DNA from: Flavobacteriales bacterium
Lineage (GTDB): Bacteria; Bacteroidota; Bacteroidia; Flavobacteriales_D; CAJJDF01
Length of the DNA: 38,911 nucleotides
NCBI GenBank assembly: GCA_020630395.1
Contig: JAHDBM010000027.1
Span: 1 to 38,911 of the forward strand
Direction of reading: 5' to 3'
The notes under the pieces were generated by a model. It was not told the DNA's origin. It worked only from the letters and a program-made list of their open reading frames with translations, and made no database searches. The first letter of the stretch is position 1; the number at the start of each line of letters is the position of its first letter. This document shows positions 14,993-30,385 of the stretch, piece after piece. The translations under genes and the position numbers were made by a program.

Positions 14993-15196
14993 TTATTTTC
15001 TTTTTGCAGATATACTTAATCGATATGCAATAAATACTACAAAAAATACTGCTGCAATTGAAATAACAAGTTCGGACATGTGCATTCCAACAATTTGCTT
15101 ATCCCAAAAACTAACTTCTTCTTCGGGAGCCACTTGACTCATACCTACCTGACTTACCAAAAGGCAGATAAATAATATTAAACTTCTCGCTTTCAT
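14993..15196 (-). CDS. Small membrane protein in the ccm operon
   Basis: The 67-residue product has a hydrophobic N-terminal signal-like segment ending VGMSQ, an acidic stretch (APEEEVSFWDKQ), one membrane helix (residues ~42-60) and a basic tail ending SAKRK. I do not recognise a family. Its plan, signal segment then acidic patch, helix and charged tail, is the same as that of the CcmD-like protein encoded 35 bases upstream. It may be a diverged second CcmD or a lineage-specific partner of CcmC/CcmE. It sits between ccmD and ccmE in the same direction, so co-expression is likely. Confidence 0.65.
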   Translation of the reverse strand: MKARSLILFICLLVSQVGMSQVAPEEEVSFWDKQIVGMHMSELVISIAAVFFVVFIAYRLSISAKRK

Positions 15197-15231
15197 AATA
15201 TTGGGTTTATTATAATAACGAGTTAAAGAAA

Positions 15232-15462
15232 CTAATTGTTGCCTATTTCTTTCTCTAATTTATTGATTTTTCGATCGGTACGAATTAAAAAAATAATGAT
15301 TCCTATAAATATCACACTAATTATAGCAATAACAACATTTATTTTTCCTGATTCATGAAACGTTTTAGATAATTCAGATTGATTAACTTCTTGACTGTAA
15401 CTAGTTAAGCTTGATATTAGAACAGTTATGGTAACAAAAATTTTAAACATCCAATTTTTCAT
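15232..15462 (-). CDS. CcmD family protein
   Basis: The 76-residue product has a signal-like N terminus ending TSYSQ, then a single membrane helix (~43-61, VVIAIISVIFIGIIIFL) followed at once by a charged tail, RTDRKINKLEKEIGNN. This helix plus R-x-DRK-I-KLEK tail is typical of Bacteroidota CcmD family proteins, which help release holo-CcmE from the CcmABC complex. It lies 13 bases after ccmC. The family call rests on this short pattern and position. Confidence 0.75.
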   Translation of the reverse strand: MKNWMFKIFVTITVLISSLTSYSQEVNQSELSKTFHESGKINVVIAIISVIFIGIIIFLIRTDRKINKLEKEIGNN

Positions 15463-15475
15463 AGTATTTGTTTTT

Positions 15476-16543: not shown

Positions 16544-16545
16544 TG

Positions 16546-17205
16546 TTATGCTTTCCAAAGGTAGGGAAATAATAAAAAGGCTAAGGCAATTACCAATATA
16601 TTTATACTTAAAAGTGTTAAAATGAGATCAAAAGCCTGACTAAAACCACCTCCTAAGAATGCTAAATTTGTGAGCTGTAATGCAATAAGTAATGATGGTA
16701 GCACAATTGGAAAAGCTAAAATAGCTAATATTCCTATGTTATTATTGGTTTTAGCAGCTATTGCGCCAATCATGGTTAAGGTAGATGAAATTGTTGCTCC
16801 GCCTAGTAAACAGCTAACTAAAAAAAGAGAAGTGTTAAGTTCTTTTTTATCGGTTTCTATTAACATATTAAATAATAAAAAGATTAATAAAACGAGTAAC
16901 AAGGTTAAGAGTAAATTATAGATGATTTTTCCAATAATAAGTGCTCTTGGATTAATTAATGTATAAATAAAAAGTTGTTTTGAAGAGTTTTCGTTAATAA
17001 AGGACTTAGAAATAGCATTAGTTAACGAAAATAACATCACTACCCAAAATAATCCATTCCAAACAACTGATTTTTCTATTTCAGAAAAAGAAAGGTAACA
17101 TACAAAAACAGTACTCACTATGTACAAAACTATAGAACTAAAAAAGTGTTTTTGCTTTAATTCTATTGCTAGTTCATGTTTAATAAGATGCAGTACTTCT
17201 TTCAA
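16546..17205 (-). CDS. ccmB: Haem exporter membrane subunit CcmB
   Basis: CcmB is the membrane subunit of the CcmAB ABC complex that drives release of holo-CcmE. The 219-residue protein has six hydrophobic segments and the CcmB start pattern HLIKHELAIELKQKH. Other family-like stretches are WNGLFWVVMLF, LTNAISKSF, LLGGATISSTLTMIGAIAAKT and LAFPIVLPSLLIAL. The frame has no ATG before conserved sequence: an in-frame stop lies 15 bases upstream, so the start must be the TTG at 17205. It is the first gene of the operon. The ATPase gene ccmA is not adjacent, as is often so in Bacteroidota. Confidence 0.9.
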   Translation of the reverse strand: MKEVLHLIKHELAIELKQKHFFSSIVLYIVSTVFVCYLSFSEIEKSVVWNGLFWVVMLFSLTNAISKSFINENSSKQLFIYTLINPRALIIGKIIYNLLLTLLLVLLIFLLFNMLIETDKKELNTSLFLVSCLLGGATISSTLTMIGAIAAKTNNNIGILAILAFPIVLPSLLIALQLTNLAFLGGGFSQAFDLILTLLSINILVIALAFLLFPYLWKA

Positions 17206-17364: not shown

Positions 17365-17823
17365 ATGGAAAACTTAAAAGATTATTTATTCTTGGATGAT
17401 GTAATGGGTATGAACTCAAAGCAAATTGGTAAACAAATTCATAGCTGTAGTGTATTAACACCAAATTATATTTTTGTTATTCCAAAAAAAGCAGTAGGTA
17501 TGTTTGTAATTGTAAATACCATAAAAACACATGATTTCTTTCAAGGTGGTGATATTGCTAATGGAGTTAAAAAAATGATTAATGCTTCAGATAATATAGT
17601 AGCATTGGAGGAATCTTTTAAGTCATTATTAGAAAATGATGAGCGTTATGTATATCCAATAGAAGAGGCTAAAACAATAAAGGTTAAAGGCTTTTTAGGA
17701 AGAAAAACTTTAATGTATAGAAAATCTGCAATGAATCATATGTCTATTAGTCCAAAAGGAAAAGCTATAGGTAAGGATTTAGTAGAGTGGCATTTAGGGA
17801 ACTATGAAAAAGTTATGGCTTAA
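17365..17823 (+). CDS. Conserved-looking hypothetical protein
   Basis: I do not recognise this 152-residue protein. It is predicted soluble and cytoplasmic, with no signal peptide or membrane helix. Strand-rich segments (NYIFVIPKKAVGMFVIVNTI) come first, then helical ones (IVALEESFKSLLENDE), a basic patch (KVKGFLGRKTLMYRK) and the end VEWHLGNYEKVMA. It is a lone plus-strand gene between the ccm operon and the lipid cluster. It is convergent with the adenylating enzyme gene, and the two stop codons overlap by 4 bases. A promoter candidate precedes it. A regulatory or stress role would be a guess. Confidence 0.7.
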   Translation: MENLKDYLFLDDVMGMNSKQIGKQIHSCSVLTPNYIFVIPKKAVGMFVIVNTIKTHDFFQGGDIANGVKKMINASDNIVALEESFKSLLENDERYVYPIEEAKTIKVKGFLGRKTLMYRKSAMNHMSISPKGKAIGKDLVEWHLGNYEKVMA

Positions 17824-17840
17824 GAGTAAATTGCTCTTAA
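17820..17840. terminator. Short hairpin at overlapping convergent stops
   Basis: TTAAGAG (17820-17826) and CTCTTAA (17834-17840) form a 7-bp stem with a 7-base loop. It starts in the shared stop region of the plus gene ending at 17823 and lies within the last codons of the minus gene. T-rich sequence follows on the plus strand, so it could end the plus transcript; support is weaker for the minus one. Confidence 0.4.
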
Positions 17841-19325
17841 TTTATCATAATCAATCTTAGCATTATGTCTAGGATCAAGCGGTATTTTTTTTATAAAATG
17901 TACCGCTTTTATTTTGTCGTGATTTTTTAAAATGTTTTTTTTGATCTGATTACGGTCTTCCCATGAAACAGGTTCAATAAAAGCTGTAATAACGTCTGTT
18001 TTTAAAACAGTTCCAACATGAATGTTTTTTTCTTGTGCCAACAAGTATTCATATATAAACGGAGATGTTAGCTCGTCTTTATCTATTATTATCTCTTTAA
18101 TTCTACCCAATAAATAGAGTTGACCGTCAATTAGTTTTCCAGCATCACCTGTTCTATGCCAAACAGTTTCTCCATCTTTTATTTTATTCTTTTTAGTATC
18201 TTCTTCGCTTAACAGGTATTCTTTTAGGACATGCTTTCCTGAGACTAAAATTTCTCCAACCTCCTGATCTTTAACCGAAAGTTCTTTTAAGTCTTGTTGA
18301 GTGAGTATTTCTTTATCAGTTTTCTTTATCAATTTTAGTTGAACATGATTGCTAGGTGTGCCAACTGGTAAGCCATTAGTGGTTATTTCCAGTTGTTTTT
18401 TAAGAAGCTGTTCTCCTAAAATGTGGCTAATAGGTTCAGCTTCTGTGGATCCGTATAATATATTAATATTAGCTTTTGGAAAAGTATGTTTGAATTGTGG
18501 TATATCATCTGGAAAAACGGGTGCTCCCCCAGTAAATATTTCGTTAGTATGAGATAATGAGATTGACTTGTCATTAGCTAAAACTCTGAAAAAGGAGGGA
18601 GAACTAATGATTCTATTAACCTTATTATCTATTAGATAACGTGAGACTTTAAAAGGCTTAATTTTATCTAATTTCTTTAAATTATAGTTTGGTAATACTG
18701 ATGAAGCACCTGTGCCTAAATTGCATAGAACAACAATTGGTAGCCCAATAAAATCACAGTGAGATTGATTGGTTTTTAGTTCATCCAATAATATGTTGTA
18801 TTGTGCTGTTAAAAATTCATGCGTTCTATTTGCAGCTTTTGGAATACTTGTGCTACCAGTGGTAAACGTAACTAGTACCGTTTCATCTTGAGCAACAGTT
18901 TCTGCTTTTTTAACTGGAATTGATGTTGTTTTAATACTACTATTAATAGTAATTTCTATTTTTCTGAGTGGAGCATATAAAAACTTCAGTAACCTTGCTT
19001 TTGTGCCACCAACAAATCCCTTACAAGGAACTTTGGTTAAGCAGTCTGTTAGTCTCTTTTTGTTTGCCCATTCATCTACAAAAACGGCTACTGCACCAAT
19101 TTTAAAGGTCGCCAATAGGAATACATAAAGGGAAATACTCATAGGTATAAACACTAATATTTTATCTCCCTTTTTTATTCCTTTAGCAAGTAGCTCGTCT
19201 GCTTTATGTTGAATAGCATAATCTAATTCTTGATAGGATATAGATTTTTTATTACTAATAATCGCTTTGTTTGTTGGATAACTATTAACTGCGTTTCCAA
19301 ATATGTTATATATGTTATGATTCAT
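17820..19325 (-). CDS. AMP-forming acyl-CoA synthetase-like enzyme, OleC-like
   Basis: The 501-residue protein belongs to the ANL superfamily, which activates a carboxylate with ATP as an acyl-adenylate. The phosphate loop reads TTGSTSIPK (155-163). The YGSTEAEP motif is at ~291, the hinge Asp region TGDAGKLIDGQLYLLGRIKEI at ~390-411, and the catalytic Lys in LDPRHNAKID at residue 490. The RHNAKI form of this last motif, and the early VDEWANKKRL segment where CoA ligases differ, are most like OleC, the beta-lactone synthetase of long-chain olefin synthesis. OleA, OleB and OleD are absent here. It is the last gene of the minus-strand lipid cluster, 11 bases after the SRPBCC gene. It may activate a fatty or isoprenoid acid; the substrate is unknown. 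Confidence 0.85.
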   Translation of the reverse strand: MNHNIYNIFGNAVNSYPTNKAIISNKKSISYQELDYAIQHKADELLAKGIKKGDKILVFIPMSISLYVFLLATFKIGAVAVFVDEWANKKRLTDCLTKVPCKGFVGGTKARLLKFLYAPLRKIEITINSSIKTTSIPVKKAETVAQDETVLVTFTTGSTSIPKAANRTHEFLTAQYNILLDELKTNQSHCDFIGLPIVVLCNLGTGASSVLPNYNLKKLDKIKPFKVSRYLIDNKVNRIISSPSFFRVLANDKSISLSHTNEIFTGGAPVFPDDIPQFKHTFPKANINILYGSTEAEPISHILGEQLLKKQLEITTNGLPVGTPSNHVQLKLIKKTDKEILTQQDLKELSVKDQEVGEILVSGKHVLKEYLLSEEDTKKNKIKDGETVWHRTGDAGKLIDGQLYLLGRIKEIIIDKDELTSPFIYEYLLAQEKNIHVGTVLKTDVITAFIEPVSWEDRNQIKKNILKNHDKIKAVHFIKKIPLDPRHNAKIDYDKLRAIYS

Positions 19326-19336
19326 AGTAAAGACAA

Positions 19337-19921
19337 TTAAATGTTATCTCCAATGCTTTTTTCACAGATTAATTTTACATTTTCTATGTTCTTTGTAAAA
19401 GCATCTTCAACATTATAGGCGAATAAAGCTAATGATAATTGGTCAATCCAAGAAGCATCATTGTTTAAGTACAATATAAAACTTAATTCACAAGTTTTAT
19501 TATCTAGTTCTTTATAGGTTTGCTCAGTTATTAAATGATTTGATGTAACGAGAAAATTTTGCATGTTGAAAATACTAAGTGTTCTATTTTTATTTTCAGT
19601 AACTGCTAATATTTCTTCATCCCAAATATTTCCAGAAGCTTCATTATTTAACTGAAAACATCTTCTTGTGCTTCCCACATGTCCATCTGGTATTACACTA
19701 TCATTTAGATTAGAAATGTGATCTACATACGAAGACCAATATTGTGCATTTTCAGAATCTCCCAAGAACTTATATACAAGCTCTACGGGAGCATTTATTT
19801 TTATAGTTGAGACAACTATTTTTTTATTTTTTTTCTCACAAAATTGGTATGGAGAACAAATTATTGCTACAATAATTGTAAATACTATTAAAGTCGGTAT
19901 TATGATGATTATTTTTTTCAT
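19337..19921 (-). CDS. Membrane-anchored SRPBCC (START-like) protein
   Basis: The 194-residue protein has an N-terminal hydrophobic anchor (~3-24) and then a START/polyketide-cyclase-type domain. Its opening, STIKINAPVELVYKFLGDSENAQYWSSYVDHI, split here as KINAPVELVYKFLGD and AQYWSSYVDHI, is the usual SRPBCC start. These domains form a hydrophobic cavity that binds lipids or aromatic ligands. It lies in the lipid cluster, 11 bases before the OleC-like gene and 112 bases after the GNAT gene. Binding or moving a lipid intermediate at the membrane face fits the context but is inference. Confidence 0.7.
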   Translation of the reverse strand: MKKIIIIIPTLIVFTIIVAIICSPYQFCEKKNKKIVVSTIKINAPVELVYKFLGDSENAQYWSSYVDHISNLNDSVIPDGHVGSTRRCFQLNNEASGNIWDEEILAVTENKNRTLSIFNMQNFLVTSNHLITEQTYKELDNKTCELSFILYLNNDASWIDQLSLALFAYNVEDAFTKNIENVKLICEKSIGDNI

Positions 19922-20033
19922 TTTTTTATTTGTTTAGTCTAATGGATAGACATTTTTGTTGTTCATTTAAGACATAGCTATCGCAAGCCATGTATAAATC
20001 ATGGTTAATTTTTTCTTATTTATTTTTGATTTT

Positions 20034-20996
20034 TTAGGCTACTTTTTTCCTGTATAAACTATAGGTTCTGTAGGTGCTAGCTCCTAGCTTTTCTTTGGAA
20101 ATATTAACTGAAGCATCATTCTCTTTGGCTATATATGCGTGTATTACAGTTGTTATATTGTTTTCAAAAGCGAGCATAGTTGCTTTATGAGATAAATATG
20201 AGCCAAGTCCTTTAATTTTTGTATTTGGATGTCTAGCAACTGTCTTAATAATAAGTTCCTTACTGTTATTCCATAAGTTTTCATAAGCTAGTAATACTGC
20301 TTGCAGTTCTCCTTTATGATTTTCGATTAACCTTATGTAAGAGGTGTCAATATGAGAAATAAATGGGGTATATTTTTTTAAAAAATCATCTTCTTTAATT
20401 GGGCTAAACAAAAAATTGTGTTTAAACGATTCGTTACTAAAAACAGCTAGATTATATAGTTCATTATCTAAGTTTTCTGTATTAATTCTACGAATTACCC
20501 ATCCCTTGTCTGATATTTCATTTTCTTTTTCTAAAATAAAGTCTTCAGAAAAAGTATTGCTTGCTACAATATTAGATTCATAGTGTTTAAGGACGCTAAA
20601 ACCATTGCTTTTTAAATAATCAGTATGTAATGGCTTAGTAACTTCTTCACCTAAGAATGGGGCAGGAGTTTCAGTATCCATTAAACGATAATTATGCCAT
20701 GTAGAACCATTAATTGGTCCAATGATTTGTTTACACAATTGTTCTTTAGCAATAATTGTTAGTTGGCTAAATAATTGATTAGCTACTTCATCATGTATAG
20801 CATCTAAATATCCAAATGCTATTGTAGAAGTATCATTAACTCTTATGTATGGATTTCGATAAACAACTAGTTTACCGATAATTTCTTCTCCATCTGTAGT
20901 TACTAATCCACCTAGTACATAATCTATTTCTGTAATAGGTTCATTAAAGCTCTGATGAAATTGTTCATCAGTTTTATATATAAATGTTGTGTTCAT
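20034..20996 (-). CDS. GNAT-fold N-acyltransferase-like protein
   Basis: The 320-residue protein looks like two GNAT-type lobes. The first contains GPINGSTWHNYRLM (~108-121), a phrase seen in several putative GNAT acyltransferases. The second carries an acetyl-CoA-type loop, TKIKGLGSYLSHKATMLAF (~260), followed by a strand and helix and a final YRTYSLYRKKV. No signal peptide or membrane segment is visible. It starts 22 bases after the kinase-like gene, so it is probably in the same transcript. It could acylate an amine on a lipid head group, for example the amino group left by the DUF3419 enzyme. That link is inference; the substrate cannot be read from sequence. Confidence 0.6.
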   Translation of the reverse strand: MNTTFIYKTDEQFHQSFNEPITEIDYVLGGLVTTDGEEIIGKLVVYRNPYIRVNDTSTIAFGYLDAIHDEVANQLFSQLTIIAKEQLCKQIIGPINGSTWHNYRLMDTETPAPFLGEEVTKPLHTDYLKSNGFSVLKHYESNIVASNTFSEDFILEKENEISDKGWVIRRINTENLDNELYNLAVFSNESFKHNFLFSPIKEDDFLKKYTPFISHIDTSYIRLIENHKGELQAVLLAYENLWNNSKELIIKTVARHPNTKIKGLGSYLSHKATMLAFENNITTVIHAYIAKENDASVNISKEKLGASTYRTYSLYRKKVA

Positions 20997-21018
20997 GATA
21001 TTAAATGTTTGGAGCCTA

Positions 21019-21690
21019 CTAGGCCATAATGACTTCTTTTACAAAGTATAATGAGCCAAGTGCGGTTAATGGAATAGTTAAATTGTCATATCCGTTTATG
21101 CTAAGGCCTTCTGCAATTGTGCATAATAATGAAATCCCTGCTGCTACAGATAGTGCAAATACAATGTTGCCATTGGCAAAAAGAATACCAGTTGTGAGTA
21201 TAAAACAAGAAATAAAGAACCCTAGATTACCTGCAAATGTTTTTTTGTTTCCCATTATGGTGTAGGGTCCATATCCAATTTTTTTGCCTGTTAAGGCAGC
21301 AATAGGATCACAGATAGCCAAGATTAGAATAGGTAAATAGTAAAAACCATAAATCTGCTCTTGCTGAAATATCCAAAAGCATCCGCATACTATTATTGGG
21401 AATATGGTGCTTCCTTTTGTTTCCCTTTCTACATCATTTATTGAGCCTAATAATTTAAGTGGTTTAGAGGCATACAAAATAACTAAGAACATCCCACATA
21501 AAATAGCTACACTAAGTAGCTGAGTAAAAAATAAAGGAAAGCTCAATGCAATTAATCCAGAAGCAATGTGAATGATTTTTCTGGTTAATTCAGTTGATAA
21601 TTTATATTTAATATAGGTCCATTCTATTGCTATGAATAAGAATAGGTATATCCCGCTATAGATAAAAAGTTGTTTAAATTCCATGGGCAT
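21019..21690 (-). CDS. Dolichol/phytol kinase-like integral membrane protein
   Basis: The 223-residue protein has about seven hydrophobic segments. It carries family motifs of CTP-dependent polyprenol kinases (SEC59/VTE5/Dgk1 type): TRKIIHIASG (~36-45), CDPIAALTGKKIG (~127-139) and GNKKTFAGNLGFF (~147-159), with a later EGLSINGYDNLTIP. Known members phosphorylate dolichol, phytol, geranylgeraniol or diacylglycerol, and phosphatidate cytidylyltransferases are distant relatives. Two starts are possible, at 21690 and 21684. In this cluster with HMG-CoA reductase, UbiA and CDP-archaeol synthase, an isoprenoid alcohol or isoprenoid glycerol is the best guess for substrate. An intergenic palindrome separates it from the DUF3419 gene. 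Confidence 0.78.
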   Translation of the reverse strand: MPMEFKQLFIYSGIYLFLFIAIEWTYIKYKLSTELTRKIIHIASGLIALSFPLFFTQLLSVAILCGMFLVILYASKPLKLLGSINDVERETKGSTIFPIIVCGCFWIFQQEQIYGFYYLPILILAICDPIAALTGKKIGYGPYTIMGNKKTFAGNLGFFISCFILTTGILFANGNIVFALSVAAGISLLCTIAEGLSINGYDNLTIPLTALGSLYFVKEVIMA

Positions 21691-21700
21691 TTGTTTAATC

Positions 21701-21766
21701 TTTCGACTCCGCTCAAGATGACAACTTTAAGAAAACTTAATAGTGTCATGCTGAGCGTAGTCGAAG
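21701..21766. repeat. REP-like palindrome (TTCGACTCCGCTCA type)
   Basis: TTTCGACTCCGCTCAAGATG with its extension to 21723 pairs, with few mismatches, with the arm at 21744-21766 reading TGTCATGCTGAGCGTAGTCG and on. The arms form a long imperfect stem of about 22 bp. Related sequence recurs at 25685-25707. Such intergenic repeats are common in Flavobacteriia and may end or process transcripts. Confidence 0.8.
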
Positions 21767-21770
21767 CATA

Positions 21771-22865
21771 TTATTTACAATCTACTACAAATCTTTTATA
21801 GAAAAAACCTTTATCTTTTGCTAAATGCTCTTTGGTCTTATTAGTAAGTCTATATGCTTTATTGTTACTCATAATTCGATCTACCATTAAGTTCCAATAG
21901 GCATATTTTGCATGTTCTGTTCCACCTTCTATAAGTTCTTTTTGTACAGAAGCAAAGGTTTCTTTATTTAGATACTCGAATATATTGGAAAGGTTAAACG
22001 CATCAAAAGGACCATGCTGTTCTATTGCATCCTTAGCAAAACCATTAATTAATGTAAGTTTATCTAGATTTTGTTTTACTTTTTCATAGTTCTCTTCTTG
22101 CACATAATGTGGTAGTTTATCTAAAAAACTTCCGGTTAATGCATAGTTTAACATGAAGTTATCATGAACATGCTTACTACTTAAATGCCTTTTTGCTTGA
22201 TTTAAAATAAAGGTAGACACACTACCTTCAAATTCTTTCATGAAGGACTTGTCTCTTCCAAGTCTTCCCATAATAAATCGACTAAAGAAAGCTTTAAAAA
22301 ACATTCTCCATCTCCAGGTGTCCCATGATTTATGAAAAAAAGCAGCTTGATCAGCTTCTGATTTTTCTTTTAATAGTTCTCTTACTTTCTTTTTAGAATG
22401 AATTAATGGAATAACTCTTTTAGAAAACAATTGAAAATACTTTTCAAATTTTCCTTGATGAACAATTCCTGCTTTTATAGTTTCAAGTTGGCTATCCCAG
22501 TATTTTTTGCATACATCAGATAGTTGAGGTCTAATGTTTTGATATGTTTCCATTCTAGTATTACCATCTTGAACATGAAAACCAATAAAGGCTAGATATT
22601 CATTTCTGTTTAGTAATAATATTGCTTGCTTTTTTAATTCGATTAAAAATAATTGGACTTCACTCACATCAACAGCTACTACTTTTTTAGGATTAGTAGT
22701 TAAAAGTGAAAATGAATTGTCTCCACCAGATCCAATTGATAAAATATTGTTGTTTTCATCTAGATCAAGACCCTTTAATAATAAATCAGCATCTTCCCAA
22801 CAATTCGCATAACGGATAATATCGAAGTCGACTTCTTTTAAATTTTTCTTTTCTTTTTTACTCAT
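21771..22865 (-). CDS. DUF3419/BtaA-like aminocarboxypropyl transferase
   Basis: The 364-residue protein matches the DUF3419 family: YANCWEDADLLLKGL (~19-33), an S-adenosylmethionine-binding loop LSIGSGGDNSFSLL (~42-55), then VAVDVSEVQ, and a late LSNIFEYLN. In betaine lipid synthesis BtaA of this family moves the 3-amino-3-carboxypropyl group of SAM onto diacylglycerol. The partner methyltransferase BtaB is not here, so if the chemistry is the same the product would keep a free amine as a homoserine ether. The acceptor may be an isoprenoid glycerol rather than diacylglycerol (inference from neighbours). The sequence is too diverged to name it BtaA. A 15-bp palindrome at 22885-22899 lies just upstream. 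Confidence 0.82.
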   Translation of the reverse strand: MSKKEKKNLKEVDFDIIRYANCWEDADLLLKGLDLDENNNILSIGSGGDNSFSLLTTNPKKVVAVDVSEVQLFLIELKKQAILLLNRNEYLAFIGFHVQDGNTRMETYQNIRPQLSDVCKKYWDSQLETIKAGIVHQGKFEKYFQLFSKRVIPLIHSKKKVRELLKEKSEADQAAFFHKSWDTWRWRMFFKAFFSRFIMGRLGRDKSFMKEFEGSVSTFILNQAKRHLSSKHVHDNFMLNYALTGSFLDKLPHYVQEENYEKVKQNLDKLTLINGFAKDAIEQHGPFDAFNLSNIFEYLNKETFASVQKELIEGGTEHAKYAYWNLMVDRIMSNNKAYRLTNKTKEHLAKDKGFFYKRFVVDCK

Positions 22866-22884
22866 CTTTCAATTTTTTATGATG

Positions 22885-22899
22885 AATGGTTAAACCATT
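22885..22899. promoter_or_regulatory. Perfect 15-bp dyad upstream of the DUF3419 gene
   Basis: AATGGTT and AACCATT flank a single central A, 20 bases before the DUF3419 start codon. The stem is too tight for a hairpin terminator, and the symmetry fits a dimeric regulator site. No copy was found elsewhere in the cluster by eye. Confidence 0.3.
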
Positions 22900-23047
22900 T
22901 TTATTTAACATACTGCTTCACCTTTAAATAGGTTATGACTCATAATGTTTTATGTCAATATTTTTGATTTAACTATGTAAGGCTTCATTTCAAAAGGCGT
23001 GCCAAAACTGTTAGAATATTGTTAATTATATTGTAACGCACTGGTTT

Positions 23048-25636
23048 TTAAAGTAATTCAATTTTACCAGAACTACCATTTATTCGAATTTTGTCTCCGT
23101 TTTTTAATTTTTTTAAAGCATGCGATACACCCACAATACATGGAATCCCCATTTCCCGAGAAACAATTGCAGAATGACTAAGTAAACTACCTCTTTCTAC
23201 TACAATGGCACTGCAAGTAGGGAATAGGGTTATCCAACCTGGATCGGTACTCTCACACACCATTATTTTTCCTTCAAGGTTCTTCACATCTTTTGGAGAA
23301 TGAACTAACAATACTTCCTGTTCCACAATACCAGGAGAACAACCAATTCCTTCAAGATCCGCTTTCTCATCTGATTCGGTAGTGTTTCGATAATCATTCC
23401 CTACATATGAAATACCATGGGTAGGGAATCGTTCATCAGTATCATATTTATCGAAAGTTGCATGATTGGCTTTTCTAAGGCTAACAAGGTCTTTTAAATT
23501 ACCATTTACTGATGTACCCCTTATAAAATCAAATATTTCCTTTTGTTCTAAGTAAAAGATATCCTGAACGTTTTCTAAAACACCTTCTAGTTTAAATTGT
23601 TTACCCATTGCTTGAAACATCACTCTAACCAAACCAAAACCTTTAGTTCTTTCAAATCTTAAATTTTCTCTTTGGCTAACTAATTCTCTGGTTTTTTTAA
23701 GTTGCCATTTAAATATTTTCTTTTTTTTCCATTTACCTTTTAACGCTTTAAATATAGTTTCTTCTGCTTCTTTTCTAATTCTTTTTCCATTAACCTCTAA
23801 TGCTTCAATATCAATAACAACATCTAATTGATCTTTTAATAGTTCGATAAACAGAATTGGATTTGTAGTGTATGTTTCGGTTTCGAGTTTTAATTCTCCT
23901 GTTACTCTATCTCCAAATTTGGCAACATAGGCATTAATCTTTTCATTTACTACCGGGTAATTATGCAGGTGCTGTTCGATATGTAAAGGAATATTATTTT
24001 TAAACAAATCATAGCATTCTTGATTTACTTTAATTAAATCTCGAATTTCTTGCATTAAAATTACCGGTTGAACAGAAACAATATCATTACTTCCAATTAA
24101 TAAATCATTAGCAAGATTTGCATGTTCTGGAGCTAATTTTTCGGTTTTCTTTTTTAATATACCAAAGAAAATCATTGCGAAGAAGTCGTTTATAAGTGGA
24201 GCTCTCCATTCTTCAAGAAGGATTTTTTCATAATCTTGATAGTGATCCATTATTTCACTTGCAGATAATGTATCGTATTCAATTGATTTATATGTTGAAA
24301 ATACCTCTTCAGTAAAGGCAAAGAACTTTCTTCTATTCCTTTTAATGGTTCTAAATTCTTTTAGAATTTTAGAAACTGCACCAATTAGTCTACGATAGGA
24401 TTTAAATTTACCATCTGTATTAGGAATTGCAACATCTTCAGAGATAGATTCTTTAACCCCCATCATACTTTCCATGGATTTTTTGTTAATCGCATATCCT
24501 GGAAATAATGATAGTACTTTATACCAATTGATTAAGTTATAGTAAACTTTTCCTTGAAAAAGCCCAAGCATATTGGCAAAGGTTTCTTTGTTGTCTTCAA
24601 TTTTCTTTAAATCAACTCCCATTAATTGACAAAATTGAATGTAAACCGATTCGTACATTTTTAAAATGAAAGAAAAGGTTAGTGGAGAGCTAATTCCAGG
24701 ATAAGACTCAATTATATTACTATTATCCCATAATTGAGCATTGCTAGAAGTATCTGGACGTGAGTTTAGATTGGTTATTGGACGTGCTTGCAATAAAAAT
24801 AACTCATTGTTATGGTACGCAAACTCTATATCTTGATAATGATTAAAGATAGATTTAATGTCATCTAATGTCTTCGCAACTTCTGCAACTTGCTCGTTCG
24901 TTAAGCTAGCTCTATTTTGTTTTTCCTTATCTACTTTTATATAAGATAATTTACCATCCAAGAATTTATACGCTCTATCTTTATCTACAAGGTTTTGCGT
25001 AATGTTTCCATTTTTAAAAGTATAATTATCAGAATTTAATTCACCAGAAACTAATCCTTCACCAAGACCATAAACCGTACTAATAATTTTCTCTTGTCTA
25101 TCACCTGTAACCGGATTGGCTCCAAAGGCAACTCCAGACACATCTGAATCAACCATTTTTTGAATAATAACCGAGACAAAATAATTTGGTGTGAGGTTAT
25201 TTTCTTTTCGGTAAGTAATAATATGCTCGCTAAAAGCAGATAACCAAACTTTCTTGATGTTTTCGACTAAATCTGTTGGAGCGACAAACAAATAACTATC
25301 ATATTGACCTGCAAAAGATGCTGCTGCTCCATCTTCATCACTTGCTGACGAACGAACTGCAAAATAGTCCTTAGCTTGAATGTTTAGTTGCTTATGAATT
25401 TCATTTAAAAGGTCTTTCTCAAGATCAATTTTTTTAATGATATCAATAAGTTTAAGATAATCTATCTCTGTATAATCAACTTTTTCTTTATCTAGTATTG
25501 ATTTAAAGAAATCTTCTGGAATTACAATCCATTTTGGCACATTAAACCCATGACTAGATAGTGAAAGCAAATGTTTTGCTTTGCCTCCAATCGTAGCATC
25601 TTTACGTGATAAATAATTTTCGTTATGAATAATCAT
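23048..25636 (-). CDS. ATP-grasp/phosphohistidine phosphotransferase (RPH- and PEP-synthase-like)
   Basis: The 862-residue enzyme starts with a PPDK_N/ATP-grasp region (~1-295). This carries VRSSASDEDGAAASFAGQYD, GVAFGANPVTGD, YGLGEGLVSG and DIEFAYHNNELFLLQARPIT. A long middle region (~300-770) resembles the substrate domain of rifampin phosphotransferases. The C-terminal swivelling domain has its catalytic His in GSLLSHSAIVSREMGIP (His 821). The PEP-binding TIM barrel of true PEP synthase or PPDK is missing. Length and domain order are those of rifampin phosphotransferases, which use ATP to phosphorylate an alcohol via phosphohistidine, giving AMP and phosphate. In a lipid cluster the acceptor could be an isoprenoid alcohol or head-group precursor. 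The middle region is unusually Lys-rich. Drug resistance is the alternative, but the context argues against it. Confidence 0.85.
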   Translation of the reverse strand: MIIHNENYLSRKDATIGGKAKHLLSLSSHGFNVPKWIVIPEDFFKSILDKEKVDYTEIDYLKLIDIIKKIDLEKDLLNEIHKQLNIQAKDYFAVRSSASDEDGAAASFAGQYDSYLFVAPTDLVENIKKVWLSAFSEHIITYRKENNLTPNYFVSVIIQKMVDSDVSGVAFGANPVTGDRQEKIISTVYGLGEGLVSGELNSDNYTFKNGNITQNLVDKDRAYKFLDGKLSYIKVDKEKQNRASLTNEQVAEVAKTLDDIKSIFNHYQDIEFAYHNNELFLLQARPITNLNSRPDTSSNAQLWDNSNIIESYPGISSPLTFSFILKMYESVYIQFCQLMGVDLKKIEDNKETFANMLGLFQGKVYYNLINWYKVLSLFPGYAINKKSMESMMGVKESISEDVAIPNTDGKFKSYRRLIGAVSKILKEFRTIKRNRRKFFAFTEEVFSTYKSIEYDTLSASEIMDHYQDYEKILLEEWRAPLINDFFAMIFFGILKKKTEKLAPEHANLANDLLIGSNDIVSVQPVILMQEIRDLIKVNQECYDLFKNNIPLHIEQHLHNYPVVNEKINAYVAKFGDRVTGELKLETETYTTNPILFIELLKDQLDVVIDIEALEVNGKRIRKEAEETIFKALKGKWKKKKIFKWQLKKTRELVSQRENLRFERTKGFGLVRVMFQAMGKQFKLEGVLENVQDIFYLEQKEIFDFIRGTSVNGNLKDLVSLRKANHATFDKYDTDERFPTHGISYVGNDYRNTTESDEKADLEGIGCSPGIVEQEVLLVHSPKDVKNLEGKIMVCESTDPGWITLFPTCSAIVVERGSLLSHSAIVSREMGIPCIVGVSHALKKLKNGDKIRINGSSGKIELL

Positions 25637-25684
25637 ACGTTTTATTTTAAAAGTCCATGTAGGACATTAAATACTTTTTTTACA

Positions 25685-25707
25685 CTTCGACTCCGCTCAG
25701 TATGACA
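25685..25707. repeat. Single REP-like arm
   Basis: CTTCGACTCCGCTCAGTATG plus three bases is one arm of the palindrome seen whole at 21701-21766. It lies between the UbiA gene and the phosphotransferase gene. No matching second arm is present nearby. Confidence 0.7.
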
Positions 25708-25742
25708 GTTGTGTTAGCAGAGGGAAGTAATTTTTTTACTTA

Positions 25743-26654
25743 TTAAATATTAATAAACCATCCTTCTATTTGAGGATAACATCCAATTACAATATACATA
25801 ACCAATGTCCAAACACCTGATGCTATTTCAATTCCCTTAGATTGCTGCACATTAGGTTTTTTCATGAATGAAAGTCCCAATGCAAAAGATACTGTGAATA
25901 TTATGCCAAGGATTAATATGGAAATAAAGCTGTAATCAGCTAAAATACAACATGCAGAAGCAAGAGATAGGCTAATGCCCATCATAGCTAACCATGACCA
26001 AGTTGATTTATTGATACCAAATTTCCTTGTGTAGGAGTTGTACTCTTCGTTTTCTTTTGCTTTTATTTTTCTTCCAAATTCAACAACTAAACCATTAAAG
26101 AAAGATGTGGCTAATAATACGTATAAACCTAAATGTGTTGATGTACCTGTAATATACCAATCGCCTGAACTTGCAAATAAATCGATTAAGGGTACAATAA
26201 CCATGTGTGAGGTTGTGTAAAGAATAGGTAGTTTTTCTAATTTTTCAGACACAAAGAATTCATTTGACATAAAGAATAACCATCCCATAAATAATGCATA
26301 AAATCCCCAAAGTGATGGGATTAAAAACACCATGATTCCTATTTGAATAAGTAATAGTATAATGATAAGAACTTTAAGTTCTTTAAGACTCACTACTCCT
26401 CTTTGTACTGGCAAATGAGGTCTATGTTCTTTGTCAATATCAAAGTCCTTGAATTCGTCTATTAGTCTAATAAGAAAAAAGGTAGTGAACGTAATAGCAA
26501 GAATAGAAAAGAATACGAACAGATTAATTTTTCCTGTTGGATTCATTAAATTTCTTGAATAAGACATTGCAGAAAAGGTTAATGCTCCTATTAGAATAAA
26601 GTTTACGATTAATGGAAATCGTTCTTTTTGATATATATAAAATCGTTTTAACAT
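25743..26654 (-). CDS. UbiA-family prenyltransferase-like membrane protein
   Basis: UbiA enzymes move a prenyl group from a prenyl diphosphate to an aromatic or glycerol-phosphate acceptor; the archaeal member makes digeranylgeranylglyceryl phosphate. This 303-residue protein has about eight or nine membrane segments. Its first acidic motif region is RLIDEFKDFDIDKEHRPHLP (~63-82), with the Asp and RP spacing of the family. The second motif is divergent: where the classical enzymes have DxxxD, it reads EFGRKIKAKENEE (192-204), like a less studied UbiA subgroup. The acceptor therefore cannot be assumed to be geranylgeranylglyceryl phosphate. It sits between the CDP-alcohol transferase and phosphotransferase genes, with repeat-bearing gaps on each side. 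Confidence 0.75.
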   Translation of the reverse strand: MLKRFYIYQKERFPLIVNFILIGALTFSAMSYSRNLMNPTGKINLFVFFSILAITFTTFFLIRLIDEFKDFDIDKEHRPHLPVQRGVVSLKELKVLIIILLLIQIGIMVFLIPSLWGFYALFMGWLFFMSNEFFVSEKLEKLPILYTTSHMVIVPLIDLFASSGDWYITGTSTHLGLYVLLATSFFNGLVVEFGRKIKAKENEEYNSYTRKFGINKSTWSWLAMMGISLSLASACCILADYSFISILILGIIFTVSFALGLSFMKKPNVQQSKGIEIASGVWTLVMYIVIGCYPQIEGWFINI

Positions 26655-26725
26655 GAGTTAAGATTTTTTGTTAATATAAAAATTGAATTAAGGTAACCAG
26701 TCATTTATTTAGTTACTAATTCATG

Positions 26726-26797
26726 TGTCATCCTCAACTTGATTGAGAATCTATTGTTAAAAAAGTAAATTAGATTCCCATTTTCATGGGAATGACA
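26726..26797. repeat. Intergenic imperfect palindrome (GTCAT...AATGAC type)
   Basis: The arm at 26726-26753 (starting TGTCATCCTCAACTTGATTG) and the arm at 26771-26797 (ending CATGGGAATGACA) form an imperfect long inverted repeat. Each arm has its own dyad, CTCAA/TTGAG and CCCAT/ATGGG. It fills the gap between the CDP-alcohol transferase gene and the UbiA gene and is another flavobacterial-type intergenic repeat. Confidence 0.75.
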
Positions 26798-26812
26798 ATT
26801 AAATTTCAAGCT

Positions 26813-27382
26813 TTAGCTGTTTTTTAATACCCAATACAATCCTTTTGCATTAGGTTTAGGTTTGTTTAATATAAATTGAACTGCTAAATGTTCTAGGCAC
26901 GATAGTATTCCCCAACCTATAGCTATGTAATAGTATATTACATTAAATTGAAAACAAAATAAAACAAAGAAGAAACCTCCCTGTATATAACCTCCTATTT
27001 TCCATGAATAAAGATGGTATGCTGGCATCTTTCCAAATTTAGAAAATGCAGTTATATGCAATAAAATAAACAGGAATAGATAAGTTCCAAATATGATCCA
27101 ATGACCGTTAAAATCTTCCATTTTAAATAAAAATATGCCGAGTATTGCTAAGATATATGTTCCTAAATCAGCAGTGGAATCTATAACTGCTCCGATTTCT
27201 GTTTGCAGATTGAAGCGTCTTGCAATGAATCCATCTAAAATATCGGTTATTAGATTTGTCACCAATAAGATAACAAATAATGTTTCCTCTCCATATAAGG
27301 CTATAAGCAATATAATAGGGAATGAGAATAGTCTATACAAGGATAGCATATTCGGTATGTTAATGGGGATTTGTTGTTTCAT
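26813..27382 (-). CDS. CDP-alcohol phosphatidyltransferase family protein
   Basis: These membrane enzymes swap CMP on a CDP-activated lipid for an alcohol head group such as serine, inositol or glycerol phosphate. The 189-residue protein has about five or six helices and a perfect family signature: Asp47-x2-Asp50-Gly51-x2-Ala54-Arg55-x8-Gly64-x3-Asp68-x3-Asp72. The head-group alcohol cannot be read from this signature. It lies 33 bases downstream of the CDP-archaeol synthase homologue, so the pair form a natural two-step module: CTP activation, then head-group transfer. Use of a CDP-isoprenoid lipid is inference. Phosphatidyl substrates from normal metabolism are the alternative. Confidence 0.88.
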   Translation of the reverse strand: MKQQIPINIPNMLSLYRLFSFPIILLIALYGEETLFVILLVTNLITDILDGFIARRFNLQTEIGAVIDSTADLGTYILAILGIFLFKMEDFNGHWIIFGTYLFLFILLHITAFSKFGKMPAYHLYSWKIGGYIQGGFFFVLFCFQFNVIYYYIAIGWGILSCLEHLAVQFILNKPKPNAKGLYWVLKNS

Positions 27383-27415
27383 GCTATAAATATTATGAAA
27401 ACTGAATTACGGATT

Positions 27416-27970
27416 TTAGATAGATGTTTTTCTAACTCCTATTATAAATAATATGTAGTTTATTGCTAAGTGCACAACTCCAAAAAATACAACTCCTACG
27501 AAAAAATGAGTCCAGGTATAATTTGAAAAAGGAATGAGTATTAACATAATGAAAGAAACTGAATCTACTTGATCTATTATGTGTAACCAAAAGCCATCAG
27601 CAGATCCAGGTTCTACATTTATTTGTCGTTTAAAAAAACTATTTGGCAATTCACCTAAAATATAGCCTAAGCCAAATAACACACTATAAAAAGGAATAGA
27701 ATACCTTGAGTAGTCAAGTAAATTATATTGACTATCCCCTGATAAATAATGATGTAAATACGTAAACATTATACTTAATACAACCATAACAACTAGTCCT
27801 CTATACGTTTTGTTATTTCCAAAAATCCTCTTCCCTCTAAAAGATTTAAAATGATCCATAGGATATTTTAATGTCTTAAAAAGATTTAGTTTTACTACTA
27901 CCATGTGCAGTATCGCAGCACCTATTACTGGATAGCACATGGTTAATAGTTCAAGAATAATTGATGCCAT
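27416..27970 (-). CDS. CDP-archaeol synthase (CarS) homologue
   Basis: In archaea CarS converts digeranylgeranylglyceryl phosphate and CTP to CDP-archaeol, the precursor of polar ether lipids. This 184-residue membrane protein has the expected helices and CarS motifs: SFRGKRIFGNNKTYRG (~43-58), GELPNSFFKRQINVEPG (~106-122) and IDQVDS (~132-137). CarS-like proteins occur in some bacteria, and FCB-group bacteria have been reported to hold archaeal ether-lipid genes. Bacteria normally use CdsA for ester lipids, so this points to an additional lipid. It follows HMG-CoA reductase by 20 bases and precedes the CDP-alcohol transferase gene. The substrate lipid is inferred, not shown. Confidence 0.85.
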   Translation of the reverse strand: MASIILELLTMCYPVIGAAILHMVVVKLNLFKTLKYPMDHFKSFRGKRIFGNNKTYRGLVVMVVLSIMFTYLHHYLSGDSQYNLLDYSRYSIPFYSVLFGLGYILGELPNSFFKRQINVEPGSADGFWLHIIDQVDSVSFIMLILIPFSNYTWTHFFVGVVFFGVVHLAINYILFIIGVRKTSI

Positions 27971-27990
27971 AGCTTAAGAAAAAGTCTTTG

Positions 27991-29262
27991 TTATTTTTTT
28001 CTTCCTAATGCTTGATGGGCATTTGTAAAATGACCAACTGATAGGGCAGAAGCAATTGATAATTCTCCCGCTAATACTAATCCACCACATATTTCAGCAA
28101 AGCGTCTAGAGTTATCGCGACCTTCGCATCCCATTAATTTTAAACATTCTAATTGAGTTGGTAAACCAGTACCTCCACCAACAGTACCTACTATTAGGTT
28201 TGGTAACGTGACAGAACAATATAAGTCCCCGTTTTTATCAACTTCCATTCGAGTAATACCTACTGAAGCTTCAGAAACACACGCAACATCTTGTCCGCAT
28301 GCAAGGAAGACTGCTGCTAAACCATTTGCATAATGCCCTTGAGCCCCAATGGTAACACTTTGTATGGCTGCAAGAGTTGATGATTTCCAATATTTTTCCA
28401 TTTTTTCTGGAGTAGATTTTAAAACGCTTTCTACAATTTCTTTTTTCACCACACACTCGGCAGTTACTTTTTTACCTCTTACTGATGTAAAGGATACAGC
28501 TGATGCTTTTTTATCTCCAGAGTAATTACTCTCTATGTACCATTCTTTTGGTTTTATAGGAGTAGTGCTCATAATATGATCACAAATTGCTTGTGTACAA
28601 ATCGTAACCATATTTTGACCAGAGGCATCACCAGTGTAATACTCGAATGAAATAATTAAGCTATTCCCTTCTACTACTGTAGTAATATCTTCTAGTTTAG
28701 CGTGATTACTCATTGCTCCAACTACTTTGTAATACTCATCTACGTGAGCATTAAACCAAAATAGAAATTGAAATAATTCTGGTAAATCTTTAAATTTAAA
28801 AGTAGGACTTCTATATACAGCTTCGTTCATACAAACCGAAGTTACCCCTCCGCTTAAAGTGACAGCTTTTGCTCCTCTATGATAAGATGCTACCAAAGCT
28901 CCTTCACTAGTAGCTAAAGGAATGTATACACCTTCGTTAAGAGATGTTCCTTTAACGTGTAATGGTCCTATTACACCAGTTGGGATTTGGGTCATCCCAA
29001 TGTAATTTTCAATATTACCCTTAAGTGAAGCGTGATCTTCGAATGTAGTTCCATTAGCTAGAATGTTTAATTCACTCTTAGTTTCATTCTCTAAAAATGA
29101 GTTTAAATTTTCTTGTCCTTCTTTAGTGTATTGATCAATAGCAGGAATAGCTACAGGTTGTTTTTTTGCTTCTTGATTGAAACGATTCATTATAACCTCT
29201 AATGATTCGTTTCTTGTAATTCGACTTAATGTCTCTTCTGTTTTTTTTACTACTGTTTTCAT
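27991..29262 (-). CDS. Hydroxymethylglutaryl-CoA reductase, class I type
   Basis: The enzyme reduces HMG-CoA to mevalonate, the committed step of mevalonate-route isoprenoid synthesis. The 423-residue protein keeps all key features: ENYIGMTQIPTGVIGPL (~84-100), catalytic Glu120 in ATSEGAL, GDASGQNM (211-218), Lys251 or 252 in SGDKKAS, Asp325 in ACGQD, GTVGGGTGLPTQ (~359), and the C-terminal His416 in NAHQALGR. The GDKK and RGKKVTAE motifs place it with class I biosynthetic enzymes rather than class II. There is no membrane anchor domain. It is the first gene of the ten-gene cluster, and 190 gene-free bases lie upstream. No other mevalonate-pathway gene is in the window, so it may boost flux for the cluster product. 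Confidence 0.95.
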   Translation of the reverse strand: MKTVVKKTEETLSRITRNESLEVIMNRFNQEAKKQPVAIPAIDQYTKEGQENLNSFLENETKSELNILANGTTFEDHASLKGNIENYIGMTQIPTGVIGPLHVKGTSLNEGVYIPLATSEGALVASYHRGAKAVTLSGGVTSVCMNEAVYRSPTFKFKDLPELFQFLFWFNAHVDEYYKVVGAMSNHAKLEDITTVVEGNSLIISFEYYTGDASGQNMVTICTQAICDHIMSTTPIKPKEWYIESNYSGDKKASAVSFTSVRGKKVTAECVVKKEIVESVLKSTPEKMEKYWKSSTLAAIQSVTIGAQGHYANGLAAVFLACGQDVACVSEASVGITRMEVDKNGDLYCSVTLPNLIVGTVGGGTGLPTQLECLKLMGCEGRDNSRRFAEICGGLVLAGELSIASALSVGHFTNAHQALGRKK

Positions 29263-29452: not shown

Positions 29453-30385
29453 TTAATTATATTTTATTCTTAGGATGAAACCTTCGAAAACTTGAGAGAT
29501 AAACAGTGAGTTATCATATAAAATGGCAGTTGAAGCAGCTGAAATAATGGTTCCATCATCTTTAAATAACAGTTTTTTTTCTCCAGAAGAAAGATCTACT
29601 TGATAAACTTCAGTTGGACTTATTTCAGATGAATCTTTTCTATGTGCTAAGAATTTTCTAAAACTAGGGTGAGAGGTAGTTAGCAATGTGTTCTCGTAAA
29701 AACGTATATTATCTCCACCAGCTATTGAGGTGATTTTTTTAGGTTTACTTAGTGTGTGTTGTTTGTCAATTGGGTATGCATATATATTGCCGCTTAGCGT
29801 AGTGCTTAGGTATAAAGTTGAATCTTTAATATTAATTCCATTTGGGTACTGAATACGTTTATCGATAGTATTTAATTTTCCATTTTTATACTCTATGAGC
29901 TTTCCATAGAAAACATTGTCATTAGAAAAATAAAAATGTAGTTTAGAGACAGCACAGATGGCATTTATTTTGGATTCATAGGAGAAATTTTCTTCAAAAG
30001 TGAGAGTTGAATCTTTTAGTAGATATCGTCTGATTTCAGATTGTTGAGGTTTGTCAAAATGATTAACAACAAATAAATATTTGTTTTCTTTTACCTTTAA
30101 TAAGTATATGCCATGTGGATTAAAAGTATTGAGAGAATCATCTCCAATTCGCTTAATAATAGACGCTTTATTAGATGTAATATCTAATTGCCATATATTA
30201 CCTGTTATTTCATTGTCCCAATCTCTTCTTTCGTCACATGAAATAATCAAGCGGTTAACTCCATCTGTTGTGTCTAAGAGAAAATCTTCTGGACCTTTTC
30301 CTATCCTTATTTTAGTAGTGTCTTGTAAATAAGAATACAAGGATGCAAATAAGCATATTAATAAAGCGATAGCTTTATTTTGCAT
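29453..30385 (-). CDS. Paraoxonase/arylesterase-family lactonase-like protein
   Basis: The ATG at 30385 gives a signal-like N terminus (MQNKAIALLICLFASLYSYL); a TTG at 30427 would extend it without reason. The 310-residue protein aligns by motif along the six-bladed propeller of human PON1. Calcium ligands appear as the Glu of GPEDFLLD, the Asn of KINAICAV, the Asn of YPNGINI, and the Asp-Asn of GGDNIRF. Catalytic His positions appear in NPHGIYLL, VVNHFD and TSHPSF. PON enzymes hydrolyse lactones and esters in a calcium-dependent way. Its start overlaps the end of the glycosyltransferase gene by 11 bases, so the two are co-translated. It probably acts in the periplasm or outside. The natural lactone is unknown. 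Confidence 0.8.
   Translation of the reverse strand: MQNKAIALLICLFASLYSYLQDTTKIRIGKGPEDFLLDTTDGVNRLIISCDERRDWDNEITGNIWQLDITSNKASIIKRIGDDSLNTFNPHGIYLLKVKENKYLFVVNHFDKPQQSEIRRYLLKDSTLTFEENFSYESKINAICAVSKLHFYFSNDNVFYGKLIEYKNGKLNTIDKRIQYPNGINIKDSTLYLSTTLSGNIYAYPIDKQHTLSKPKKITSIAGGDNIRFYENTLLTTSHPSFRKFLAHRKDSSEISPTEVYQVDLSSGEKKLLFKDDGTIISAASTAILYDNSLFISQVFEGFILRIKYN

Follow-up and report, generated by a model that had tools for sequence, protein, structure and literature searches.

A conserved operon with a divergent HMG-CoA reductase homologue may direct the synthesis of an amino-lipid in Bacteroidota

What kind of molecule could be produced by a bacterial gene cluster that combines an HMG-CoA reductase (HMGR) homologue with a CarS homologue, a UbiA prenyltransferase and a BtaA-like enzyme? 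Such a cluster is found at positions 17820-29262 of the window, the whole 38,911-nucleotide stretch of Flavobacteriales DNA that was analysed. It is a real unit of ten open reading frames, all located on the minus strand and separated by intergenic gaps of 11-182 bp. The initial annotation had listed ten genes and their families; all ten reading frames were recovered and the families were borne out by Pfam/NCBIfam searches and AlphaFold models, three proteins (GNAT, prenol-kinase-like and SRPBCC) being weakly matched by, or absent from, the Pfam and NCBIfam libraries. Synteny across Bacteroidota, proposed at that stage as a check, is clearly conserved. Loci were located by BtaA alone, and among the 49 with room for the full set, 43 carry a core set in the fixed order HMGR-UbiA-RPH/PPS-BtaA-prenol/lipid kinase-GNAT-ligase. 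Since six other core genes recur in the same order around loci found through a single one, this grouping is far beyond chance. All seven core genes are present in a rearranged order in G348; the set is also rearranged in G461, where the UbiA reading frame was not recovered. The optional members are SRPBCC and a pair formed by CarS (or CdsA) and a CDP-alcohol transferase. No conserved flanking genes were found around the operon loci beyond the genus level, and the glycosyltransferase and cytochrome-c genes flanking the operon are not conserved with it. A contig scan with CarS alone confirmed no relative. As the initial annotation had supposed, no description of the seven-gene set was found in the literature searched, which comprised open-access papers only, so that absence is not proof.

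The first gene of the operon (27991..29262, minus strand; PF00368, 5.6e-114) encodes an HMGR-family reductase of 423 aa. This protein shares its fold and the catalytic Glu, Lys, Asp and His with class I HMGRs (human, plant, Methanothermococcus 6hr7), and the corresponding residues E120, K251, D325 and H416 are kept in 56/56 operon copies. In contrast to class I enzymes, however, the position of human Ser684 is occupied by Glu in all 56 copies, and that of human Lys735 by Ser in 53 and by Ala in three. Structural work on HMGR assigns Lys735 a salt bridge to the terminal carboxylate and counts Ser684 among the conserved contacts (PMC9500038). The rest of the HMG pocket is mostly kept. The operon enzymes have also gained a conserved Arg, R338, at a position held elsewhere by Leu or Val, and this residue could make up for the lost Lys735.

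The genomic background of these copies bears on their role. The host genome (G000) uses the MEP pathway, as DXR is present, and the operon copy is its sole HMGR. Mevalonate-diphosphate decarboxylase (TIGR01240) is absent from this genome, and the relatives likewise use the MEP pathway and lack the decarboxylase. In mevalonate-pathway hosts, the operon HMGR is an extra copy beside a second, housekeeping HMGR, which in G070 adjoins the mevalonate-diphosphate decarboxylase gene. Two mevalonate-pathway genomes had initially appeared to possess the operon HMGR only; a broader Pfam model revealed a housekeeping second copy in each, and the earlier result was thus a sensitivity artefact. One metagenome-assembled genome (locus L031) contains the other six core genes and only a housekeeping HMGR. 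A function in isoprenoid supply was rejected: because of the MEP hosts, the extra copy in mevalonate-pathway hosts and the loss of the HMG-carboxylate residues, the operon HMGR is not the isoprenoid enzyme, nor is it linked to the mevalonate pathway. It seems to have been repurposed and probably acts on a thioester other than HMG-CoA.

Could the enzyme nevertheless still make mevalonate, used here as a building block? In fungal siderophores, SidI and SidF transfer mevalonyl, with HMGR, an acyl ligase and a GNAT operating in series. By analogy, the operon ligase would form mevalonyl-CoA and the GNAT would load mevalonyl onto the BtaA-derived amine. In agreement with this proposal, the operon contains both a ligase and a GNAT, and the catalytic residues are conserved together with most of the HMG pocket; the proposal would also account for the retention of an HMGR by MEP hosts that lack mevalonate-diphosphate decarboxylase. 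We consider it improbable, since both contacts to the distal carboxylate are lost in 56/56 copies, the extra copy persists even in hosts with a mevalonate supply of their own, and variants without HMGR keep the GNAT. HMG-CoA synthase is absent from G000 and most hosts according to PF01154, a model that also misses mevalonate-pathway hosts; TIGR00748 was uninformative in this respect as it matches ordinary KAS III. The operon differs from the fungal system in lacking a hydratase, in its different GNAT and in its altered HMG pocket.

The initial annotation had favoured an archaeal-like isoprenoid polar lipid. In an archaeal-type ether-lipid pathway, UbiA would be the DGGGP synthase, CarS would produce a CDP-lipid and the CDP-alcohol transferase would add the head group, these three being successive archaeal steps. 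FCB bacteria with GGGPS and DGGGPS have been described (PMC7852524), and the three families are common to that pathway and the operon. The window does encode a CarS-like CDP-lipid synthase (27416..27970, minus strand; PF01864, 2.7e-15) and a PgsA/cardiolipin-synthase-like CDP-alcohol phosphotransferase (26813..27382, minus strand; PF01066, CDP-OH_P_transf, 3.1e-21). However, both are accessory and missing from most operon loci. The transferase is paired with CdsA or CarS in 17/17 loci having it, CdsA taking the place of CarS in most of them; CarS in an optional pair, usually swapped for CdsA, is therefore not an archaeal signature. The UbiA-superfamily prenyltransferase (25743..26654, minus strand; PF01040, 1e-12) carries the motifs DEFKDxxxD...LPVxRG and E-x-GRK, both nearly invariant among 62 copies. 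Its profile matches DGGGPS 6m31 weakly and over half its length (2.9e-4), and it reaches 19.7 bits (4.8e-4) with the DGGGPS model NF009522, whose cut-off is 353 bits; by these comparisons and by its second motif, E-x-GRK, it is not of the DGGGPS type. The GGGPS expected elsewhere in the genome was searched for with PF01884 and was absent from G000 (98.75% complete), G062, G065 and G066, among them the host and operon-bearing Sphingobacteriaceae. Of the 20 genomes searched, 15 had a GGGPS, irrespective of whether they carried the operon. The G1P dehydrogenase model PF13685 gave a match below cut-off in G000 (1e-5) and is unspecific, 13 of 14 controls also matching. Considering also that the HMGR is not tied to isoprenoid supply, an archaeal-type lipid seems very improbable. 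Although this isoprenoid part of the earlier claim did not hold, its polar-lipid part stands: the enzymes fit a polar-lipid pathway whose product probably contains a group derived from aminocarboxypropyl, joined in some genomes by a phospho-alcohol head group.

The aminocarboxypropyl group would come from the BtaA-like S-adenosylmethionine:3-amino-3-carboxypropyl transferase (21771..22865, minus strand; PF11899, 9.4e-61), which carries the DUF3419 domain with its SAM-binding region. In betaine-lipid synthesis by BtaA and BtaB, BtaA moves this group from SAM to a lipid hydroxyl, a feature common to the operon. The BtaA homologue could point to ordinary synthesis of the betaine lipid DGTS when phosphate is limiting, but this is extremely unlikely: no BtaB N-methyltransferase was found adjoining BtaA, among operon neighbours or in conserved flanks, and six more conserved enzymes (GNAT, UbiA, RPH-like dikinase, HMGR-like reductase, lipid kinase and ligase), two of them kinase-like, would be left unexplained.

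The RPH/PPS-like dikinase (23048..25636, minus strand; PPDK_N, 3.7e-60; PEP-utilizers, 1.3e-23) comprises an ATP-binding domain, a central domain and a phospho-His domain in which His821 (SLLSHSAIV) is invariant; the pyruvate barrel is absent. Its first label, RPH-like, was apt, as its closest solved relatives are rifampin phosphotransferases (profile versus 5hv2, 2e-106), above PEP synthase. It also matches PigC/RedH models and shares with RPH, PigC and RedH the architecture with a swivelling phospho-His domain. A PigC/RedH-type ligase would suggest a soluble or antibiotic-like secondary metabolite instead of a membrane lipid, and the operon has the patchy distribution typical of secondary metabolism, being absent from the five nearest genomes. 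Nevertheless, such a product is distinctly unlikely: the partners found in variant loci (CdsA or CarS with CDP-alcohol transferase, DAGK_cat, PS decarboxylase) are lipid enzymes, several core proteins belong to membrane-embedded or lipid-directed families, and the conserved gene set contains no exporter. Unlike RPH, PigC and RedH, the operon dikinase is always located beside UbiA in a lipid operon, and its central domain bears the signature WDNSNIxESYPG.

The four remaining genes lie downstream of BtaA. The prenol-kinase-like protein (21019..21690, minus strand) has no Pfam match; its AlphaFold model (pLDDT 93) points to a membrane lipid (prenol) kinase of the CdsA/dolichol-kinase fold, CdsA (CDP-DAG synthetase) being the only solved-structure likeness. 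This likeness is weak (best E 0.068, TM 0.40), as expected for the CdsA/dolichol-kinase/phytol-kinase superfamily. The tandem GNAT acyltransferase (20034..20996, minus strand; Pfam 0.0028; AlphaFold pLDDT 93) resembles mycothiol synthase and glucosamine and histidine acetyltransferases, which are tandem GNATs, and its C-terminal domain bears the acyl-CoA loop KGLG. The accessory SRPBCC (START-like) lipid-binding protein (19337..19921, minus strand; PF10604, 3e-5) has an N-terminal hydrophobic segment, scores below threshold (24.8 bits, cut-off 27.4) and is found in a minority of full-length loci. The last gene (17820..19325, minus strand; PF00501, 1.1e-36) encodes an AMP-forming (ANL) acid ligase of the OleC/PRK09274 group, with a nearly invariant Lys490 in an A10-like motif. 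It matches PRK09274 (5.2e-89) and the OleC model (8.8e-50; 169.7 bits, OleC cut-off 900). This ligase resembles OleC of the olefin OleABCD pathway, but OleA, OleB and OleD are lacking in the operon and conserved flanks.

Gene fusions and exchanges in variant loci indicate the logic of the pathway. HMGR is fused to an APH kinase in three of the four loci without the lipid kinase, that is, in all three testable ones, and in no seven-gene locus; in variant loci the lipid kinase is swapped for DAGK_cat or a free APH. BtaA is fused to GNAT in G077. In L012, L188 and L189, an NAD_binding_4 thioester reductase occurs in place of HMGR and ligase; no HMGR of any kind was found in genomes G218 and G422, which carry such variants, and these FAR-type variants also carry PS decarboxylase. 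A CarS homologue follows the HMGR-kinase fusion in G039 and G072. The G039 locus contains HMGR-APH, CarS, PPS and a UbiA-like frame and lacks BtaA, GNAT and ligase, implying that the module of HMGR, kinase and CarS does not necessarily use a BtaA product as its substrate.

The genes present, their order and conservation, the swaps and fusions, the altered residues and the MEP background were observed directly; from them we infer every reaction, product and exact substrate of an amino-lipid pathway. BtaA would place the 3-amino-3-carboxypropyl group of SAM on a lipid alcohol whose synthesis would involve UbiA and the dikinase, and GNAT would acylate the new amine. The ligase would turn a carboxylic acid into a thioester, which the HMGR-family enzyme would take to a primary alcohol, and the CdsA-fold kinase would phosphorylate this alcohol. 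Where present, CdsA or CarS and the CDP-alcohol transferase would convert the phosphate into a head group. Phosphorylation of the HMGR product by the lipid kinase is fairly likely, and an amino-lipid with an N-acylated BtaA-derived amine is slightly favoured. The complete scheme, a seven-gene amino-lipid operon with an optional head-group pair and SRPBCC, is the preferred reading, held tentatively at a little under an even chance. It is rather unlikely, though conceivable, that the reduced acid is the BtaA-derived carboxyl itself, yielding an aminobutanediol (sphingoid-like) backbone. Unlikely as well is a new class of membrane lipids with a non-glycerol, sphingoid-like backbone, in which the SAM-derived aminocarboxypropyl group on a lipid alcohol would be activated by the ligase and reduced by the HMGR-family enzyme, whose new Glu (position 684) would pair with the amine and not with the HMG carboxylate; phosphorylation, N-acylation and, in some cases, addition of a CDP-derived head group would complete the lipid. 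To our knowledge, a sphingoid-like backbone of this kind would provide the first HMGR-family enzyme with a non-HMG substrate.

HMG-CoA reductase, one of the best-studied enzymes, serves as a marker for the mevalonate pathway. Here, an entire clade of the family is encoded in a lipid operon of bacteria that rely on the MEP pathway, and its contacts to the HMG carboxylate are gone. Many proteins annotated as HMGR in Bacteroidota are therefore probably misnamed, and the clade may reveal a new thioester-to-alcohol chemistry. Species descriptions in Bacteroidota list "unidentified aminolipids", some of which the operon product may account for. Since the carriers include the cultivable environmental genera Dyadobacter, Sphingobacterium, Rhabdobacter and Parapedobacter, this product can be sought directly. 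A promoter scan gave a site count not above that of shuffled sequences. Terminator-like sites exceeded the shuffles but were scattered through coding sequence.

The ten co-directional open reading frames lie on the minus strand at 17820-29262, HMG-CoA reductase (HMGR) first and an ANL ligase last, and the families named in the initial annotation were borne out at these coordinates. The weaker assignments (GNAT, prenol-kinase-like, SRPBCC) were examined further. GNAT was confidently modelled as a tandem-GNAT fold. The prenol-kinase-like protein (prenolK) also gave a confident model. Among solved structures it resembles only CdsA, the CDP-DAG synthetase, and with a weak E-value, as one would expect of a member of the CdsA/dolichol kinase/phytol kinase superfamily. 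Rifampin phosphotransferases are the closest relatives of the dikinase, and the SRPBCC protein scores under its Pfam cut-off. On the same strand, CcmE, CcmC-like and CcmB (cytochrome c maturation, 14538-17205) are encoded just past the downstream end of the operon, and two GT2 glycosyltransferases with an SGL-like protein (29453-32537), not conserved with the operon, just upstream. A type IX secretion neighbourhood occupies 93-8611 (two CHU_C-tailed proteins, PorP/SprF and an OmpA-family protein).

A public genome collection was searched with an alignment of BtaA homologues; 523 relatives were confirmed and the best 80 of the 523 loci were read. The taxon labels of these 80 are Bacteroidota throughout, except for one Chlorobi locus without the rest of the operon, and their carriers include Dyadobacter, Rhabdobacter, Microscilla, Sphingobacterium, Parapedobacter, Saprospiraceae, Chitinophagales, Crocinitomicaceae and Fluviicola. 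The gene set first noticed in the window is syntenic for a core of seven, found complete and in one order, HMGR-UbiA-dikinase (PPS)-BtaA-prenolK-GNAT-ligase, in 43 of the 49 loci with enough flanking DNA (window counted). No further gene in the flanks of the operon loci is conserved beyond genus level. From one core protein to another, pairwise identities are correlated, with r 0.41-0.87 across 36 loci (kinship ignored). Of 392 genomes sampled across the phylum, nine, host included, matched the BtaA profile at E<=1e-117; the neighbourhoods read from this sample held all seven genes in genomes G236, G142, G096 and G348, and six in G461. The seven genes of G348 are differently ordered, and G461, where the UbiA frame was not recovered, has the same rearrangement. 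The grouping is therefore not the simple inheritance of a frozen neighbourhood. Operon-type BtaA is absent from the nearest relatives of the host (same genus and family), so that the operon's distribution is patchy.

The initial annotation proposed that the cluster makes an archaeal-like isoprenoid polar lipid, with a GGGPS to be sought elsewhere in the genome; none was found in the host genome, which is 98.75% complete. DXR is present there, mevalonate-diphosphate decarboxylase was not found, and PF01154, which misses some synthases, matched no HMG-CoA synthase. The host's sole HMGR is the operon gene. The mevalonate-pathway carriers G067 and G068 possess the operon HMGR and a distant second HMGR, as do G080 and G070; the latter has both isoprenoid pathways, and its second copy adjoins mevalonate-diphosphate decarboxylase. 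In the HMGR tree, very long branches part the housekeeping enzymes from the operon clade, which groups with human and Methanothermococcus HMGR on the side of class I. Taken together, the host's pathway genes, the second HMGR of mevalonate carriers and the tree indicate that the operon HMGR is not tied to isoprenoid supply. Three genomes (G007, G067, G068) contain mevalonate-diphosphate decarboxylase and lack DXR, yet PF01154 finds no HMG-CoA synthase in them; their synthase is thus divergent or missed.

CarS had been taken as a further pointer to archaeal lipids, a role that it loses on comparison. The CDP-alcohol transferase occurs in 17 loci, each time with a CDP-lipid synthase. Among these loci that synthase is CarS in just the window and L008/L073 (two views of one genome), and CdsA in the others. 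CarS also follows HMGR-kinase fusions in genomes G039 and G072. CarS and CdsA are thus interchangeable alternatives for a final step that is itself optional. The SRPBCC gene, too, is optional. The study of archaeal lipid genes in the FCB group deals with GGGPS and DGGGPS, and its authors state that they detected no CarS there (PMC7852524).

Aligned to human HMGR, all 56 operon HMGRs keep Glu559, Lys691, Asp767, His866, Asn755, Arg590, Asp690 and Lys692, and all 56 have Glu at the position of Ser684. The position of Lys735 is Ser in 53 and Ala in three, in an alignment that is gapped around 735; the window HMGR has a Lys one residue away, in a column that is not conserved. Methanothermococcus HMGR retains both Ser684 and Lys735. 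In ordinary HMGR these two residues hold the distal carboxylate of HMG (PMC9500038). The loss of both, with an acidic residue there instead, predicts that the substrate lacks this carboxylate and perhaps bears an amine or hydroxyl. A new, nearly invariant Arg338 (operon HMGR) might stand in for the lost contacts. Stand-alone homologues of the operon clade, with no cluster, were seen in genomes G015, G021 and G025 (L201:2495-3769, L202:8163-9443, L208:5295-6572). Catalytic residues are missing from some of them (Glu559 replaced by Gln and Asp690 by Glu, or His866 by Gln), making an ordinary HMGR role unlikely for them. Two further loci (L209:5512-7062, L211:1310-2851), in genomes that also carry the operon, encode HMGR-like proteins some 515 aa long; these have an additional N-terminal domain, with Glu in position 684 and Ala in position 735.

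Among core-type loci of sufficient length, four (L036, L061, L066, L078) have no prenolK. In the three corresponding genomes where HMGR was readable (G078, G072, G077), it carries a fused APH-type kinase domain; the fourth yielded no more than a short piece of HMGR at the edge of a contig. The fusion is absent from all 43 seven-gene loci. In more distant variants, prenolK gives way to a free-standing APH kinase (L013) or to a lipid kinase of the DAGK_cat type (L188). These fusions and replacements imply that the kinase substrate would be the HMGR product. Likewise, BtaA and GNAT form a single 637-aa protein in G077 (BtaA 12-363, GNAT 379-634), implying that the BtaA product would be what GNAT acts on; acylation of its amine is the simplest possibility. 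Loci L012, L188 and L189 lack HMGR and ligase in the cluster and encode a NAD_binding_4/thioester-reductase enzyme; no HMGR was found anywhere in genomes G218 and G422. As judged from this replacement, the role of HMGR would be thioester reduction. A homologue of PS decarboxylase is encoded in L188 and L189 as well; L190 has a decarboxylase of the ornithine/DAP type, a DAGK_cat kinase and BtaA fused to a PEMT-like domain. Two unrelated decarboxylases adjoining BtaA suggest that the carboxyl of the aminocarboxypropyl group can serve as substrate.

In the pathway that we propose, BtaA would put an aminocarboxypropyl ether on a lipid alcohol and GNAT would acylate the amine of the product. The ligase would activate an acid, HMGR reduce the activated acid to an alcohol, and prenolK or APH phosphorylate that alcohol; in some genomes the phosphate would be CDP-activated and a head group added. 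For UbiA and the dikinase, whose genes almost always adjoin, our guess is a role in making or modifying the lipid alcohol. The BtaA-derived carboxyl is the only acid created by the operon itself. The G039 locus, with HMGR-APH, CarS, PPS and a UbiA-like frame but no BtaA, argues that another acid is possibly the one reduced.

No description of such an operon, nor of an HMGR-family enzyme with a substrate other than HMG, was found in the open-access papers searched. Each pathway considered has a defining test that the operon fails. In kind the operon remains one for lipid biosynthesis; a sphingoid-like reading, if true, would be categorically new. Fusions of an HMGR-family reductase to an APH-type kinase are seemingly undescribed (L222:768-3119, L223:7093-9399, L227:8-2380, L228:3-1844; about 770-790 aa where complete). 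In L228 the fusion is followed by CarS and CDP-alcohol transferase, and in G039 (L222:768-9643) the locus also includes a methyltransferase and two desaturase-like genes. The distant operon variant of L188:238-9132 and L189:4133-12968 combines the thioester reductase with UbiA, RPH-like dikinase, GNAT, the PS-decarboxylase homologue and BtaA. In genome G210 (L190:5500-10870), the BtaA-PEMT-like methyltransferase fusion adjoins DAGK_cat, GNAT and the ornithine/DAP-type decarboxylase, forming a further putative lipid cluster.
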